Positions 28,946 through 36,589 of a stretch of DNA of 64,000 nucleotides are shown piece after piece; position 1 is the stretch's first letter, and every line of letters begins with the position of its first letter. The position numbers and the translations under genes were made by a program. The stretch spans positions 3,224,001-3,288,000 of the forward strand of contig NZ_CP100762.1 in assembly GCF_024296665.1 (NCBI RefSeq), in the 5' to 3' direction. This stretch comes from Salinilacihabitans rarus. Lineage in GTDB: Archaea > Halobacteriota > Halobacteria > Halobacteriales > Natrialbaceae. Under the pieces are notes generated by a model. The model searched no databases and had not been told where the DNA came from. It saw only the letters and a list, made by a program, of their open reading frames with translations.

Positions 28946-30088
28946 TTAACTCGAGAGACCGAGCGCCGCGGCGACGTCGAGCAGGCCGCTGCCCTGTTCG
29001 TTGTCCGCGAGACCGATGTCTTCGGCCGTGTCCGTCAGTTGCTGGCGCGCTTCGGTGTTCGTGTAGCCGTTGGCCATCAGCTGACCGCCCGCACCGGAGA
29101 CGTGCGGACACGCCATCGAGGTGCCCGAGAGCGTGTCGTAGCCGCCGGGGATCGTCGAGTAGACGTCCTCGCCCGGCGCGGCGATCTCGACTTCGGGGCC
29201 GGTCGAGGAGAAAGACGCCAGCGAGTCGTCCTCGCTCGTCGCGCTGACGGCGACGAACTCCTCGTAGGCCGCGGGATAGCCGACACAGTCCGTACACGGG
29301 CCGTCGTTACCCGCGGCGGCCACGAGCAACACGCCGTTGTTGTAGGCGTACTGGCCGGCGTCTTTGAGCGTCTGTGACCCGGAACTCGCGCCGAGGCTGA
29401 GGCTGGCGACGTCCCAGCCCTGGTCTGCGACGTACTCGATGCCCGCCGCGATGTCGGAGAACGACCCGCTGCCGCGCTTGTCGAGGACCTTGACCGCGTG
29501 CAGCGTCGCCTCGGTCGAGACGCCGACGACACCTTCGCTGTTGTCGACGGCGTCGGCGGTCCCCGCACAGTGGGTGCCGTGTTCGTTGTCGTCGTCCCAG
29601 GGCTCTCTGCAGATGCTCGGACCGCCCTTGCACTCCACGAACGCCGTGCCCGAACCCAGGTTGGCCTGCAGGTCCGGGTGGTCGGAGTCGATGCCCGTGT
29701 CGAGAATCGCGATGTCGGCGCCGGCCCCCGTCTCGCCGTTGCTGTGGGCCACGTCCGCGTCGACGCGGTCGATGCCCCACGGCGTCGTCTGCGCCAGTGC
29801 GTGCATCGTGCCGTTCTCCTCGACGTAGCGGACGTTCGGGTTCCGCCGGAGGCCGTCGATCGAGCGCTTCGCCGCCCGGATCGTCAGCGCGTCGAACGCG
29901 AACTCGCGGACGACCTCCGAGGCGGCCTCGATGGCCGCGGCCCGGCCGCTGTCGGCGGCGAACCCGACGTTCACCTCGACCGTCTCGTCCGGGTCGGCGG
30001 CCGCCAGACCGACGACCGCGTTCCCGGCGACGGCGCCGACGGTCGCTTTCAGCACGCTACGTCTGCTCGGTGTGGGGTTCTCTGACAT
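28946..30088 (-). CDS. Halolysin-like subtilase (S8 serine protease), Tat-exported
   Basis: 380 aa from ATG 30088 (MSENPTPSRRSVLKA); the RR motif fits Tat export. An I9-type propeptide (about residues 36-100, ending VRYVEENGTMHALAQ) precedes the catalytic domain. The catalytic triad is Asp130 (AILDTGIDSDHPD), His170 (NEHGTHCAGT) and Ser324 (SGTSMACPHVSG), with oxyanion Asn261 (AAAGNDGP). It lacks the C-terminal extension seen in classical halolysins, so it is a compact form. Likely a secreted protease. Its promoter region contains a perfect inverted repeat at 30149-30172. Confidence 0.95.
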   Translation of the reverse strand: MSENPTPSRRSVLKATVGAVAGNAVVGLAAADPDETVEVNVGFAADSGRAAAIEAASEVVREFAFDALTIRAAKRSIDGLRRNPNVRYVEENGTMHALAQTTPWGIDRVDADVAHSNGETGAGADIAILDTGIDSDHPDLQANLGSGTAFVECKGGPSICREPWDDDNEHGTHCAGTADAVDNSEGVVGVSTEATLHAVKVLDKRGSGSFSDIAAGIEYVADQGWDVASLSLGASSGSQTLKDAGQYAYNNGVLLVAAAGNDGPCTDCVGYPAAYEEFVAVSATSEDDSLASFSSTGPEVEIAAPGEDVYSTIPGGYDTLSGTSMACPHVSGAGGQLMANGYTNTEARQQLTDTAEDIGLADNEQGSGLLDVAAALGLSS

Positions 30089-30148
30089 CCCAGCCAACGG
30101 TGATAGCTAAAAACAATTAAACATTTTTGCTGTGTGTTGATATCATCG

Positions 30149-31505: not shown

Positions 31506-32648
31506 TCACGGTTCTTCGACGGCCGCGCGCTCGCGGTCACACACCGCCTCGTAGAGCCGCTGCGCCCGGTCGAGCGAGCGGTCGAGGCCGAGGCGTTCCC
31601 GGGCGGCGAGACAGCCCCGTTCGAGCGCGCCGCGTTCGGCGAGGGTCCGCCGGATCGCCGCCCGGAACGCGCCGACGTCGCCGGGCCGGTAGCGGTAGCC
31701 CGTCGCCCCCTCGTCGACGGTCTCGGCGAGCGCGCCGGCGTCGACGGCGACGACGGGAGTGCCACAGGCGATCGATTCGAGCGCCACGAGCCCCTGGGTC
31801 TCGACCGGACTCGGGTGGGCGAAGGCGTCGAGCGCGGCGTACAGTTCCGGCAGTTCGGATCGGTCGCGAAAGCCGAGAAAGCGGGCGTCGACCCCGAGGC
31901 CGGCCGCCCGCCGTTCGAGGCGGTCGCGGGCCGGCCCGTCGCCGCCGAGGACGAGCGTGACGTCGTCGAGGCCGGCGACCGCCTCCAGTAACTCCCCGAG
32001 GTTCTTCTCGTGGCCGTGTCGCCCCGTGTAGCCGACGACGGGCGCGTCGAGGCCGTAGCGCTCGCGGAACGCCGTCGCGTCGACGGGCCGGAAGCGTTCG
32101 AGGTCGACGCCGTTCGAGACGACGCGGACGGGTGCGTCGAGGGCGACCCGCTCGCGGAGGTGACGGCGGGTCGTCCGCGTCGGCGCGAGCACGAGGTCGG
32201 CGCGGCCGTAGAACCACCGCTCGTAGGCGTCGGTAGCCCGGCCCAGCGCGGCGGCGAGGCGGTCGGTCGGCGCGAGGTAGCGGACGTACGCCGGCGCGGG
32301 CGTGTGGTAGGTGGCGACCAGCGGCGCGCCCGCCCGCCGGGCGAGGCGCAGCGCCGCGAGGCCGACCGCGAAGGGGGTGTGAGCGTGGACGACGTCGACC
32401 GCGTCCGCGTCGGCCGCGACCGCGTCCGGGAGCCGCGGCCCGCCCAGCCGGTAGCCGTCGTAGAACGGCAGGGCGACGCTGCCGACGGGGTGTTCGAACC
32501 GGTCGGGGTCGTGGTCGCCGGCGGGGAAGACGACGTCCATCCGGCCGCCACGGCGGAGCCAGCGGTCGCGCCACGCCCTGACCGCGTAGGTCACGCCGTT
32601 GACCGTCGGGAGGTACGTGTCCGTGAACGCGACGACGCGCTCGACCAT
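31506..32648 (-). CDS. GT4-family glycosyltransferase
   Basis: 380 aa. GT-B fold. The N-terminal Rossmann half begins VVAFTDTYLPTVNGVTYAVR, characteristic of the GT4 group that includes plant SQD2-like and mannosyl transferases. The C-terminal nucleotide-sugar half has GYTGRHGHEKNLGELLEAV, LGFRDRSELPELYAALDAF and the EX7E-like segment PSPVETQGLVALESIACG. It is likely a cytoplasmic-face transferase making glycolipid or surface sugar. It converges with the upstream acidic protein gene and is followed on the same strand by PAP2 and binding-protein genes. Confidence 0.92.
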   Translation of the reverse strand: MVERVVAFTDTYLPTVNGVTYAVRAWRDRWLRRGGRMDVVFPAGDHDPDRFEHPVGSVALPFYDGYRLGGPRLPDAVAADADAVDVVHAHTPFAVGLAALRLARRAGAPLVATYHTPAPAYVRYLAPTDRLAAALGRATDAYERWFYGRADLVLAPTRTTRRHLRERVALDAPVRVVSNGVDLERFRPVDATAFRERYGLDAPVVGYTGRHGHEKNLGELLEAVAGLDDVTLVLGGDGPARDRLERRAAGLGVDARFLGFRDRSELPELYAALDAFAHPSPVETQGLVALESIACGTPVVAVDAGALAETVDEGATGYRYRPGDVGAFRAAIRRTLAERGALERGCLAARERLGLDRSLDRAQRLYEAVCDRERAAVEEP

Positions 32649-32691: not shown

Positions 32692-33567
32692 TCACTCTTC
32701 CCGCCGGCGGAACGGCGACCGCTCCGAGAGGCCGTCGGGGACGCTCACGCGGTCGTCGACGGCGTCCCAGACCGACCAGCGCCCCACCAGCCGGGTCGCG
32801 AGGGCGACGGAGACGTACGCGAGGCCGACGCCCGCGACCACGTCGATCGCCCAGTGGATGCCGAGGTACATCGTCGAGACGGCGACGCTGATCGCGAGGG
32901 CGGCGGCGACCGGCAGCCACGCCGGGTAGACCCGCCGCGTGCGGTAGGCGAGGGCGGCGACGGTAAACGAGAGCGAGGCGTGCAGCGACGGGAAGACGTT
33001 CGTGTTGCGGTTGACCTCGCGCGTGACGAGTTGGTACTCCGGGAAGGTGTCGTACAGCAAGGCGTCGACGAGTTCGGGCATCACGTTGCGCGGCCCGTAG
33101 GCGATCACGAAGACGTACAGCACGAGGCCGAGGGCGTAGTTGAGCGTGTACGCGGCCAGCAACTCGCGCAGCGGCCGGGTGTTCGACAGCGCGGCGTAGG
33201 CGACGACGGGGAAGACGAGCAGGAAGACGTAGCCGTAGATGTAGACGTACGAGAAGTACGCCGTCACCGCGGGCGTCGCCCGCGCCTGCAGCCAGACGAC
33301 GAACGCGCCCTCGACCTCGTAGATCCACCACGTCAGGTTCCAGTCGAGCATCCAGGAGACCTCCGGGACGGCGGTGCGGGCGATGCCGTTGAACAGCAAC
33401 ACCGCGACGAGGACGGCCGTGATCGGGGCGGCGTCGCGGACGCGGGTGCGCCACTCGGCGGCCGTCCGGGCCAGCCGCTCGCGGCCGACGACGGCGGCGG
33501 TGGCGACGGCCAGTCCGAGGCCGATGACGACCGCGAGGCGGAGGAGCGTGCGTTCGAGCACCGACAT
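32692..33567 (-). CDS. PAP2-superfamily integral membrane phosphatase/transferase
   Basis: 291 aa from ATG 33567. It has seven or so hydrophobic segments. The PAP2 motifs are VFPSLHASLSFTVAALAY (second motif) and LGIHWAIDVVAGVGLAYV (third). The first motif (usually KxxxxxxRP) is represented only by YGPRNVMPELV, so it is divergent, as in archaeal inositol-phosphotransferase-like members. It probably acts on a lipid phosphate. The ATG overlaps the stop of the upstream binding-protein gene by one base (TGATG), implying co-translation. Confidence 0.85.
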   Translation of the reverse strand: MSVLERTLLRLAVVIGLGLAVATAAVVGRERLARTAAEWRTRVRDAAPITAVLVAVLLFNGIARTAVPEVSWMLDWNLTWWIYEVEGAFVVWLQARATPAVTAYFSYVYIYGYVFLLVFPVVAYAALSNTRPLRELLAAYTLNYALGLVLYVFVIAYGPRNVMPELVDALLYDTFPEYQLVTREVNRNTNVFPSLHASLSFTVAALAYRTRRVYPAWLPVAAALAISVAVSTMYLGIHWAIDVVAGVGLAYVSVALATRLVGRWSVWDAVDDRVSVPDGLSERSPFRRREE

Positions 33568-35330
33568 CACTCCCTCACCACCAGTTCGTCGCCGTCGTAG
33601 ACGAAGCCGGCGTTCTCGAAGGCGGCTCGCGCCGCCCCGACGTCGAGGTCGCCGTCGGTCCCGAAGAACGGCACTTCGGGGTCCCGGCCGTCCCACGCGA
33701 GGCCCTCGGGCACCCACTCGCCTCCGGCCGTCGCGTCCAGCGGCGTCGCGATCGGCGTCGCGTACCCCTCGAACACCGTCTCCGCGAGCCACGCCTTGTC
33801 GAGCAGGCGCGCGACCGCCCGCCGGAAGTAGGGGTTGCCCAGCGGGTCGACGCGGACGTTGAACCCGACGTGGTAGAACGTCGGCGACGGCGATTCGATC
33901 AGGGTCAGTTCGGGGGCCTCGGGGACGCTCTCGATCGTGTACGCTTCCAGCGGCGTGGCGGTGAAGTCGGCTTCCCCGCTCTCGATGCGCTCGATGGCGG
34001 AGGTGCTTCGCGGGTCGATCAGAAAGCGCAGTTCCTCGACGGTCGGTTCGGGGAGGTCGACGGCCGGCCGCAGGGTGAAGTGGTCGTCGTAGCGCCGGAG
34101 GGCGAGGTGGTCGCGCTCGGCCCGGCCGGCGAACCGGTAGGGGCCGCTGCCGACCGCGGGCACGTTGTCGACGACGACGGCTTCGGTCGTCCCCGCGGCG
34201 ATTTCGACGCCGGGGACGGTCGCGGGGTCGGCCCGCTCCGCCCAGACGTGTTTCGGCAGGATCGGCACGGTAAACGCCCGCTCGCCGACCTCGTGGCTTG
34301 CGGTCACGTGGAGGGTACACGCCCGGTCGTCGTGGACCTCGACGCGCTCGACGGCTTCGGCCGCCCCGCGGTAGATGGGTGCGGGGGCGCCGACGTCGGC
34401 CCGGCCGAGCGAGGTGTCTTCGAGGAACCGGTAGGTGAACGCCACGTCGGCGGCCGTCAGCGGTTCGCCGTCGTGAAAGCGCAGATCCTCGCGCAGGGTC
34501 ACCGTCGCCGACCGACCGTCCCACTCCCAGTCCGCGGCGAGCCACGGCACGAGGTCGCCGCCGTCGTCGGTCGCCAGCGAGTCGTACAGCAGGTCGACGA
34601 TCGTTCCCCGGTTGCGGTACTCCGCCGCCAGCGGGTTGACGTTCTGGGACGGGCGGGGGTCCATCACCGTCGCGTGGAGGTCGGCCGCGGCGCCGTCGGC
34701 GGTCGGGTCGAGGCCGAGGTAGCCCAGCCGGCTCGCGGGGTGGTCCTCGCCCCAGCCGTCGTAGCGGTCGGCCCGGGCGAGGCGGACCTCGTCCGGCGCA
34801 CAGAGCGGGACGAACGGCTGCTCGCGGGCGACCGTTTCGAGGACGTCCCCGACGGCCGCCCGGCGGTCGGCGCCCTCGGCGAGACGGGCGCGTTCGAGGC
34901 GCTCGTCGAGGTCCACGTCGGCGTAGCCGAACGGGTTCTGCCAGCCCGCCTCCGCGGCGTAGCGAGAGTGCAGGGTCTCGTAGAGGTACGCCGGGTCGGT
35001 CCCGCCGGGGTGGACGCCGACGTAGCAGTCGAAGTCGCCGTTTATCAGCACCGTCCGGAGGAACTCCTCGTTCGAGCGGAACTCGATGCTGGCGCCGATC
35101 CCGACCGCTTCGAGGGCCGCGGCGAGACGGCGCGCGATCCGGACCGCCTGCCGGTCGCCGTCGGCGGGGAGGGTCACGATCGACAGCGAGAGCTTCGACA
35201 GCCGGTCGCGGTTGGCCGCGCTGCGAACCCGCCGGAGACAGCCGGCGGTCGCCGCCAGCCCGGCGGTCGCGCCCGCCAGTACCGACCGCCTGCTGGTCCC
35301 GTCGTCCGGGTCGGCCGGGCGTCCGTTCAT
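33567..35330 (-). CDS. Family-5 (oligopeptide-type) substrate-binding lipoprotein, apparently circularly permuted
   Basis: 587 aa from ATG 35330. Tat lipoprotein signal: SRRSVLAG and lipobox TAGC (Cys31). Residues 45-205 (LSIVTLPADGDR, LAAALEAVGIGASIEF, VLINGDFDCYVGVHPGGTDP, REQPFVPLCAPDEV) correspond to the segment that closes normal family-5 binding proteins. Residues 215-587 start with the normal N-terminal part (IVDLLYDSLATDDGGDLVPW, LREDLRFHDGEPLTAADVAF). The protein ends at AAFENAGFVYDGDELVVRE, which in ordinary members comes just before the part found here at the front. No ABC permease or ATPase genes are adjacent. The PAP2 gene is translationally coupled. Confidence 0.88.
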   Translation of the reverse strand: MNGRPADPDDGTSRRSVLAGATAGLAATAGCLRRVRSAANRDRLSKLSLSIVTLPADGDRQAVRIARRLAAALEAVGIGASIEFRSNEEFLRTVLINGDFDCYVGVHPGGTDPAYLYETLHSRYAAEAGWQNPFGYADVDLDERLERARLAEGADRRAAVGDVLETVAREQPFVPLCAPDEVRLARADRYDGWGEDHPASRLGYLGLDPTADGAAADLHATVMDPRPSQNVNPLAAEYRNRGTIVDLLYDSLATDDGGDLVPWLAADWEWDGRSATVTLREDLRFHDGEPLTAADVAFTYRFLEDTSLGRADVGAPAPIYRGAAEAVERVEVHDDRACTLHVTASHEVGERAFTVPILPKHVWAERADPATVPGVEIAAGTTEAVVVDNVPAVGSGPYRFAGRAERDHLALRRYDDHFTLRPAVDLPEPTVEELRFLIDPRSTSAIERIESGEADFTATPLEAYTIESVPEAPELTLIESPSPTFYHVGFNVRVDPLGNPYFRRAVARLLDKAWLAETVFEGYATPIATPLDATAGGEWVPEGLAWDGRDPEVPFFGTDGDLDVGAARAAFENAGFVYDGDELVVRE

Positions 35331-35420: not shown

Positions 35421-36491
35421 TCATCGCGATCGGTCGAGCAGGCGGCGGTACCGCTCGACTAGCCCCTCGCCGACGACTTCGAGACGGTGGCGCTCGGCGG
35501 TCTCGCGGGCTCGCTCGCCCAGCCGTCGCCGCAGGCCGGGGTCGGCGGCCAGCCGATCGAGCGCCTCGCGGAACTCGCGTTCGCTCGCGCAGGTGAGACA
35601 GTCGACGCCGTCGGTGAAGAACTCCTCGAACACCGGCAGGTCACGGAGGACGACCGGCTTCCGGCAGGCCATCGCTTCGAGGACGGCGATGCCCTGATTC
35701 TCCGCCCGCGTCGGGAAGAGGAAGACGTCGCCGGCGGCGAACGCGCCGCGGCGGTTCTCGACCCAGCCGGTGAAGGTGACGTTGGCGGGCGGATGTCGCG
35801 TCCAGCGACGGACCGTGGGGCTCGTCAGCGGTCCGTGGTCGAAGGGGCCGAACCAGACGAACTCGCGGTCGCCGTGCCGGGCGAGCCGACAGAACGTCGA
35901 CAGCCCCTTGCGCTCGAAGACGTTCCCGACGGTGAAGACGACGACGCCCTCCAGATCGTACCGCTCCCGGTAGGGCTCGCGGAACCGCTCGTAGCCCGCG
36001 AGCGCGTCGAGGTCGACGCCGTTGGTCACCGTCTCGACGGGTGCCTCGACGGGGTAGCCGTCGAGCAGCCGCTTCGTGTGCTCGCTCGGACAGAGCACGA
36101 GGTCGGCCTGCGAGTAGAAGCGCCGCAGGTACCGGCCGAGCGGCCCCGCGAGCCGGTTCGAGCCCCGGAAGCTCCCGCGGAAATCCTCGCGCGTGACGTG
36201 GGCGTGTACCACCAGCGGCCGCCCCGTCAGTCGCGCGTGGCGGGCGACGACGAGCGATCCGGGGCCGACGGTGTTGCAGTGGGCCAGATCGTAGTCGACG
36301 ACGGCCCCGTCGCCGCGGGCGAGGCGGGCGGGGACCCGTCGCGGCGGGCCGGCCAGCGGTCCGGTTGCTACCGAGACGTCGACCCCTCGCTCCCCGAGAC
36401 GCGACAGCGCCGTCCGCTGGTGGTCGGCGGCCGTCCCGATGCCGCTGTGCCGGAGCAACCGGGGGCATTCGAGGTAGTGGAGGACGCGCAC
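35421..36491 (-). CDS. GT4-family glycosyltransferase
   Basis: 356 aa from GTG 36491 (VRVLHYLECPRLLRHSGIG); a TTG further upstream at 36563 extends the frame but adds non-conserved residues. Motifs: VHAHVTREDFRGSFRG in the acceptor half, LVLCPSEHTKRLL, GNVFERKGLSTFCRLA, and donor-site PTRAENQGIAVLEAMACRKP. Likely mannosyl- or glucosyltransferase of a surface glycan or glycolipid. Same strand as, and 90 bp upstream of, the permuted binding protein; divergent from the RNase P gene. Confidence 0.9.
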   Translation of the reverse strand: MRVLHYLECPRLLRHSGIGTAADHQRTALSRLGERGVDVSVATGPLAGPPRRVPARLARGDGAVVDYDLAHCNTVGPGSLVVARHARLTGRPLVVHAHVTREDFRGSFRGSNRLAGPLGRYLRRFYSQADLVLCPSEHTKRLLDGYPVEAPVETVTNGVDLDALAGYERFREPYRERYDLEGVVVFTVGNVFERKGLSTFCRLARHGDREFVWFGPFDHGPLTSPTVRRWTRHPPANVTFTGWVENRRGAFAAGDVFLFPTRAENQGIAVLEAMACRKPVVLRDLPVFEEFFTDGVDCLTCASEREFREALDRLAADPGLRRRLGERARETAERHRLEVVGEGLVERYRRLLDRSR

Positions 36492-36589
36492 GTCCGCACC
36501 TCCACGGGCGCGGCCAAAGCCTCCGGGACGGCTCGCGCCGTGCGGGACGGAACGCAAGGCCAATAGGCCGGCCGGGGCAACGGTGAGGC

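Follow-up and report, generated by a model that had tools for sequence, protein, structure and literature searches.

The gene at positions 33567-35330 on the minus strand of the window, the 64-kb stretch of DNA analysed here, encodes a family-5 (OppA/DppA-type) substrate-binding protein that is circularly permuted. This confirms the preliminary description of the protein as a circularly permuted family-5 binding protein, which is borne out by Pfam PF00496, by HMMs of the two halves of the fold, by a profile search of solved structures (PDB) and by alignment to a doubled profile. The window corresponds to 3224001-3288000 of a haloarchaeal genome of 3.62 Mb on a single contig, and the ORF is genuine, running from an ATG at 35330 to a stop at 33567 with a product of 587 aa. 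The explanation that best accommodates the data as a whole, and that we think rather probable, is that this permuted fold belongs to a widespread family paired with PAP2 genes, that such permutations had repeated origins by way of gene duplication, and that the protein acts outside the cell as the partner of a PAP2_3 enzyme. The features on which the analysis draws are as follows.

33567-35330, minus strand: circularly permuted family-5 substrate-binding lipoprotein, 587 aa (ORF and translation, order tests, structure model)
35238-35330, minus strand: predicted Tat signal (SRRSVL) and lipobox ending at Cys31 (sequence; conservation in relatives)
34707-35198, minus strand: moved segment, residues ~45-208, equivalent to the canonical family-5 C-terminal third (PF00496 289-360, C half HMM, PDB profile search)
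34692-34706, minus strand: linker between the old C- and N-termini, of variable length among relatives (family alignment)
33570-34691, minus strand: N half, residues ~214-587, from the canonical start to the cut, ending AAFENAGFVYDGDELVVRE (PF00496 2-280, N half HMM, VIA-align to NikZ 1-328)
32692-33567, minus strand: predicted PAP2_3 family integral-membrane phosphatase/phosphotransferase (PF14378, 6.6e-17)
35421-36563, minus strand: GT4 glycosyltransferase, upstream (Pfam; not conserved beside relatives)
31506-32648, minus strand: GT4 glycosyltransferase, downstream (Pfam; not conserved beside relatives)

Order of the two halves and site of the cut

PF00496 scores the protein at 147 bits against a curated cut-off of 32.4, which places it in family 5, and the match covers residues 260-578 while using profile positions 2-280 only. 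When the N-terminal segment was searched alone, it matched PF00496 positions 289-360, with a score for the query's own segment under the curated cut-off. The isolated N-terminal segments of all 13 family members tested match the family-5 profile (best E 2.4e-6). A profile made from these 13 segments and searched against solved structures gave 10 matches, every one to a family-5-type binding protein or to LpqW, and every one in the C-terminal part of the chain (residues 345-515). Half HMMs (N half, C half) built from 19 canonical haloarchaeal proteins located the C half at residues 55-186 of the query (8e-13) and the N half at 228-535 (1e-41), and they found no second C half in it. Both halves of the fold are present, as judged by the half HMMs and the doubled profile, and they do not follow the canonical order of N half before C half. 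The C half comes first, and the protein is therefore classed as a permuted variant of family 5. All fold and sequence matches listed for it are to family 5.

The alignment to a doubled canonical sequence that the preliminary description proposed brought residues 51-576 into one unbroken piece (178 bits, model 327-811, on a circle of 491 columns). With the single canonical profile the query aligned in two pieces of 139 and 35 bits, one ending at 320 and the other starting at 327, and doubling the profile brings no gain for canonical proteins. The junction is near-seamless in profile coordinates, passing from 280 to 289 in Pfam and from 320 to 327 in the haloarchaeal profile. Since the halves share one family, the junction is near-seamless and there is no second C-lobe, this is a true permutation rather than a random fusion, as the matching junctions had been taken to mean. 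Chance is excluded as the source of the permuted order.

Structure prediction agrees. An AlphaFold2 model with 26 relatives as input reached a pLDDT of 81 and a pTM of 0.78. VIA-align superposed model residues 212-587 on residues 1-328 of NikZ (4oet; 323 residues, Z 22.9, rmsd 2.4), and residues 206-587 on residues 1-362 of OppA (1ola); both VIA-align and Foldseek keep strictly to sequence order, and the superposition therefore covers the unmoved part and not the moved one. Judged by the lobe limits of OppA, these superpositions place the cut inside the large C-lobe, and the new ends lie where canonical proteins pass from a helix (AxxLLEEAG) to a strand of that lobe. Most of the moved segment is well predicted when the full-length chain is modelled, and the segment is poorly predicted alone (pLDDT 64), which is expected because it is part of a lobe and not a free domain. 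The layout thus stands much as it was first read: the usual C-terminal end after the lipobox, then the N-terminal lobe, then a stop just before the moved part. Of the two observations that had been named as grounds for abandoning this reading, an N-terminal segment unrelated to the canonical C-lobe and a second normal C-lobe, neither was made.

The protein is predicted from its sequence to be a Tat-exported lipoprotein, with a twin arginine followed by a lipobox cysteine (SRRSVL...TAGC); R14, R15, L18, G30 and C31 are invariant in the 26 relatives aligned. All 26 of these full sequences have the same order and the Tat and lipobox residues, and the motif E-x-G-W-Q-N-P-F is invariant within their moved segments. 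In this alignment the linker that joins the old ends is tens of residues longer in some Halorubrum. Matches to the permuted protein at E <= 1e-60 occur in 188 of the 292 haloarchaeal genomes searched, and the listed matches span the permuted model; among the named relatives are members of Natronococcus, Natrinema, Natrialba, Natronorubrum, Halorubrum, Halobellus and Haloarcula. The host genome carries another copy (G000:C1:252105-253835), which is 38% identical and has the same permuted order. For the most divergent members, P0002 and L112, the order was read from the family alignment and the doubled profile, the C half being weak or missed alone. In database records the product is labelled 'ABC transporter substrate-binding protein'.

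Permuted order recurs in haloarchaeal family 5

A PF00496 search of other haloarchaea returned many matches that end sharply at profile positions 257-297. Candidates fetched from outside the PAP2-linked family (L105-L108 and L115-L143) were permuted by the half-HMM test in 33 of 33 cases. Two other proteins looked possibly permuted by their Pfam ends; L110 is canonical, and L109 is most likely so.

In a tree of the unmoved N half (IQ-TREE, 61 rows, 329 columns), the permuted sequences occupy at least four separate positions and have canonical proteins as close sisters. These positions are a clade of 28 sequences that includes the PAP2-linked family (support 100/99); L105/L124/L127/L139; L108/L117, sister to canonical L005/L151/L148; and L132/L133/L143, beside canonical L002 and L099. 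Four changes of state were counted over the 5-95% range of bootstrap trees, and a single clade of all permuted rows was rejected (p-AU 1.1e-7), with the L105/L124/L127/L139 and L108/L117 clades separated less firmly (p-AU 0.03 for joining). The moved segments agree with this tree: in L108 the segment shares 45% identity with canonical L151 and about 25% with other permuted clades, and in L132 it is closer to canonical L002 than to permuted proteins of other clades. Whole proteins were therefore permuted, rather than built from unrelated halves. In the large clade and in L108 the cut follows the AxxLLEEAG helix, whereas in the L105 and L132 clades it precedes this helix. One more protein, L146:3948-5888 (the same gene as L084), whose canonical sister is L002, is permuted with a cut about 90 residues further into the C half, and a short stretch is repeated at both of its ends as an overlap remnant.

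We conclude from the tree that the permuted order arose several times in haloarchaeal family-5 proteins. Counts of change on the tree do not tell gains from losses, and gains are the likelier because the canonical order is found elsewhere. The samples from outside the haloarchaea were small: 36 archaeal genomes of the phylum yielded a single candidate (G319), which proved canonical, and in seven bacterial genomes judged by Pfam end points (98 rows) no match ended in 257-297, bar one split match.

Tandem arrangements also occur in the family. A single ORF of 1582 aa, L147:4114-8859, encodes two consecutive canonical family-5 units, and no neighbouring permease was found. The ORF belongs to a distant branch and is not a direct ancestor of the permuted proteins; it is possible that it represents the kind of intermediate that leads towards permutation. 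Separately, an archaeal ORF of 1521 aa (L156:2516-7078) has long repeat-rich regions, then a canonical family-5 domain, then more sequence.

A history with one ancient permutation, followed by returns to the canonical order or by swapping of halves between genes, would account for the 28 permuted sequences, the PAP2-linked family included, that form one well supported clade, and the change counts, blind to gain versus loss, leave room for it. We nevertheless judge it improbable in view of the four changes on bootstrap trees and the rejection of a single clade (p 1e-7). The moved segments of L108 and L132 are nearer to canonical L151/L005 and L002, respectively, so the halves travelled together; the cut points vary by clade, lying on either side of one helix or, in L146, much further downstream; and outside the haloarchaea the small samples show the canonical order only. 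Far less credible still, with a probability close to nil, is that the protein is a truncated family-5 protein whose N-terminal segment is a domain of unrelated or independent origin, a reading that could appeal to the low pLDDT of the isolated segment and to the query's Pfam match below the cut-off. Against it stand the position of 10 of 10 solved-structure matches in the C-terminal part, the contiguous doubled-profile alignment, the good prediction of most of the segment in the full-length model and an arrangement common to 26 of 26 aligned relatives, so that it is in substance already refuted.

Gene context: a PAP2_3 neighbour and no adjacent permease

The ATG of the PAP2_3 gene overlaps the stop of the binding-protein gene by one base (TGATG). 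The survey of haloarchaeal homologs that the preliminary description had suggested found, beside the shared permuted order, a PAP2 gene directly downstream and on the same strand in 75 of 82 copies of the permuted protein, with gaps mostly of -6 to +24 nt; the 82 copies are those members of the family whose end is complete and whose downstream sequence is long enough to judge. The other seven are all in loci with a second binding-protein copy alongside. The PF14378 match and the conserved histidine motifs assign the downstream gene to PAP2_3, which we take to be the Aur1/IPC-synthase-like group. The gene keeps the PSLH and HWxxD motifs of PAP2_3 phosphatases and differs from them in being tied to a binding protein. 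Across 75 PAP2 sequences the PRN, PSLH and HWxxD motifs hardly vary, which, by the standards of the PAP2 superfamily, suggests an active enzyme.

Annotated records show two adjacent binding-protein/PAP2 pairs in Natronorubrum bangense (L158) and a single pair each in Haloferax gibbonsii and Halobaculum halophilum, the latter two close to arylsulfotransferase-type and sugar/glycosyltransferase genes. In L145:578-5520, two permuted binding proteins alternate in tandem with two PAP2 genes, and similar alternating arrays are seen in several Natrialbaceae and in Natronorubrum bangense. The third strong PAP2_3 gene of the host genome (G000:C1:2702404-2702871, L074) is beside neither permuted family-5 protein. 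The two glycosyltransferases that flank the pair in the window were considered as part of the unit and rejected, as no homologue lies near any other locus. Elsewhere in the window, 28946-30097 (minus strand) encodes a putative subtilisin-like secreted protease of halolysin type with a Tat-like signal, ordinary for haloarchaea.

The preliminary description had also reported that no permease genes accompany the binding protein. A permease HMM found none in the window and none in 30-odd related loci with 6-kb flanks; the permease nearest to the window copy is about 325 kb away, and that nearest to the second genome copy is 6.3 kb away, in a separate operon. Neither the window copy nor the relatives checked thus have the adjacent permease by which an ABC importer binding protein is recognized. 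The host genome contains 41 BPD_transp_1 matches, and each of its five canonical family-5 proteins has two permease matches adjacent. Among the 33 permuted family-5 proteins outside the PAP2-linked family, permeases were present in the fetched stretch for 30, mostly in ordinary ABC operons. Since most other permuted proteins have permeases, their absence is a trait of the PAP2-linked family and not of permutation.

Proposed role, precedents and significance

We propose that the former C-terminal third, now placed after the lipobox and followed via the variable linker by the former N-terminus, would still fold with the rest of the protein into the usual two-lobed clamp. Tat would export the binding protein folded, and the lipid would now anchor the C-lobe side in the membrane. 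Outside the cell, the protein may then partner the PAP2_3 enzyme as its ligand-binding component, and would either deliver or sense a phosphorylated lipid or glycan headgroup. The permutation itself may have begun with a fused tandem duplication that later lost its outer parts, a route that fits both the two tandem canonical units of L147 and the overlap remnant at both ends of L146.

In our view the protein most likely works with the phosphatase as a binding partner outside the cell, and not as part of an importer. The partnership is read from gene order, and permutation alone implies no non-transport role, given the permuted proteins of other clades in ordinary ABC operons. The protein could instead be an ordinary importer component that hands its ligand to an ABC permease encoded elsewhere, with PAP2_3 acting on a released or imported phosphate compound. 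ABC import is compatible with permutation, as the permuted relatives that adjoin permeases in 30 of 33 fetched loci indicate, and the 41 BPD_transp_1 matches mean that distant permeases could serve the binding protein. Import is nonetheless unlikely, though it deserves some weight: every canonical family-5 protein of the genome adjoins its own permeases, the loci of the PAP2-linked family that were tested have no permease within 6 kb, and the PAP2 pairing is near-constant. As to the wider proposition, that haloarchaea repeatedly permuted family 5, with at least four origins near one cut site and one elsewhere, and that one family left ABC transport for partnership with a PAP2_3 lipid phosphatase, we are evenly divided between accepting and doubting it.

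The canonical cluster C proteins NikZ/NikA, AppA, DppA, OppA and TM1223/TM1226 resemble the permuted protein in fold and in the sequence of both halves. They differ in carrying the C-terminal third at the end, whereas the permuted protein has it at the N-terminus and lacks accompanying permeases. A natural circular permutation of a substrate-binding lipoprotein is known from Treponema pallidum, where the glucose-binding MglB-2 (Tp0684), proposed as 'Type Ic/Cluster Bc', still binds its ligand (PMC4990184). MglB-2 is a type I, sugar-binding protein with another cut, found in spirochaetes and Gram-positives, in contrast to the family-5 proteins of several origins in haloarchaea described here. 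It is the only close natural precedent found among open-licence papers, and it belongs to a different class; no report of permuted family-5 proteins or of the binding-protein/PAP2 pair was found among these papers. For the role of the permuted protein, LpqW of mycobacteria may provide the best analogy. This lipoprotein is reported to channel phosphatidylinositol mannoside towards lipomannan (PMC3229680). LpqW (PDB 2grv) is a transporter-free, family-5-like lipoprotein whose C-terminal part is matched by the moved segment, but it is bacterial and has the canonical order.

Few natural circular permutations of large binding proteins have been documented, and the repeated permutation of one family at nearly one place within one archaeal class would be a natural experiment. 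It raises the questions of why the loop at the cut site accepts new termini, whether permutation is easier for proteins that Tat exports already folded, and what is gained by shifting the lipid anchor to the opposite lobe. The permutation escapes annotation pipelines, with Pfam seeing the middle only and records calling the product an ABC transporter protein, even though the PAP2-linked family lacks an adjacent transporter. The PAP2 pairing offers a direct lead to a candidate cell-envelope function that roughly two thirds of the haloarchaeal genomes surveyed would share.
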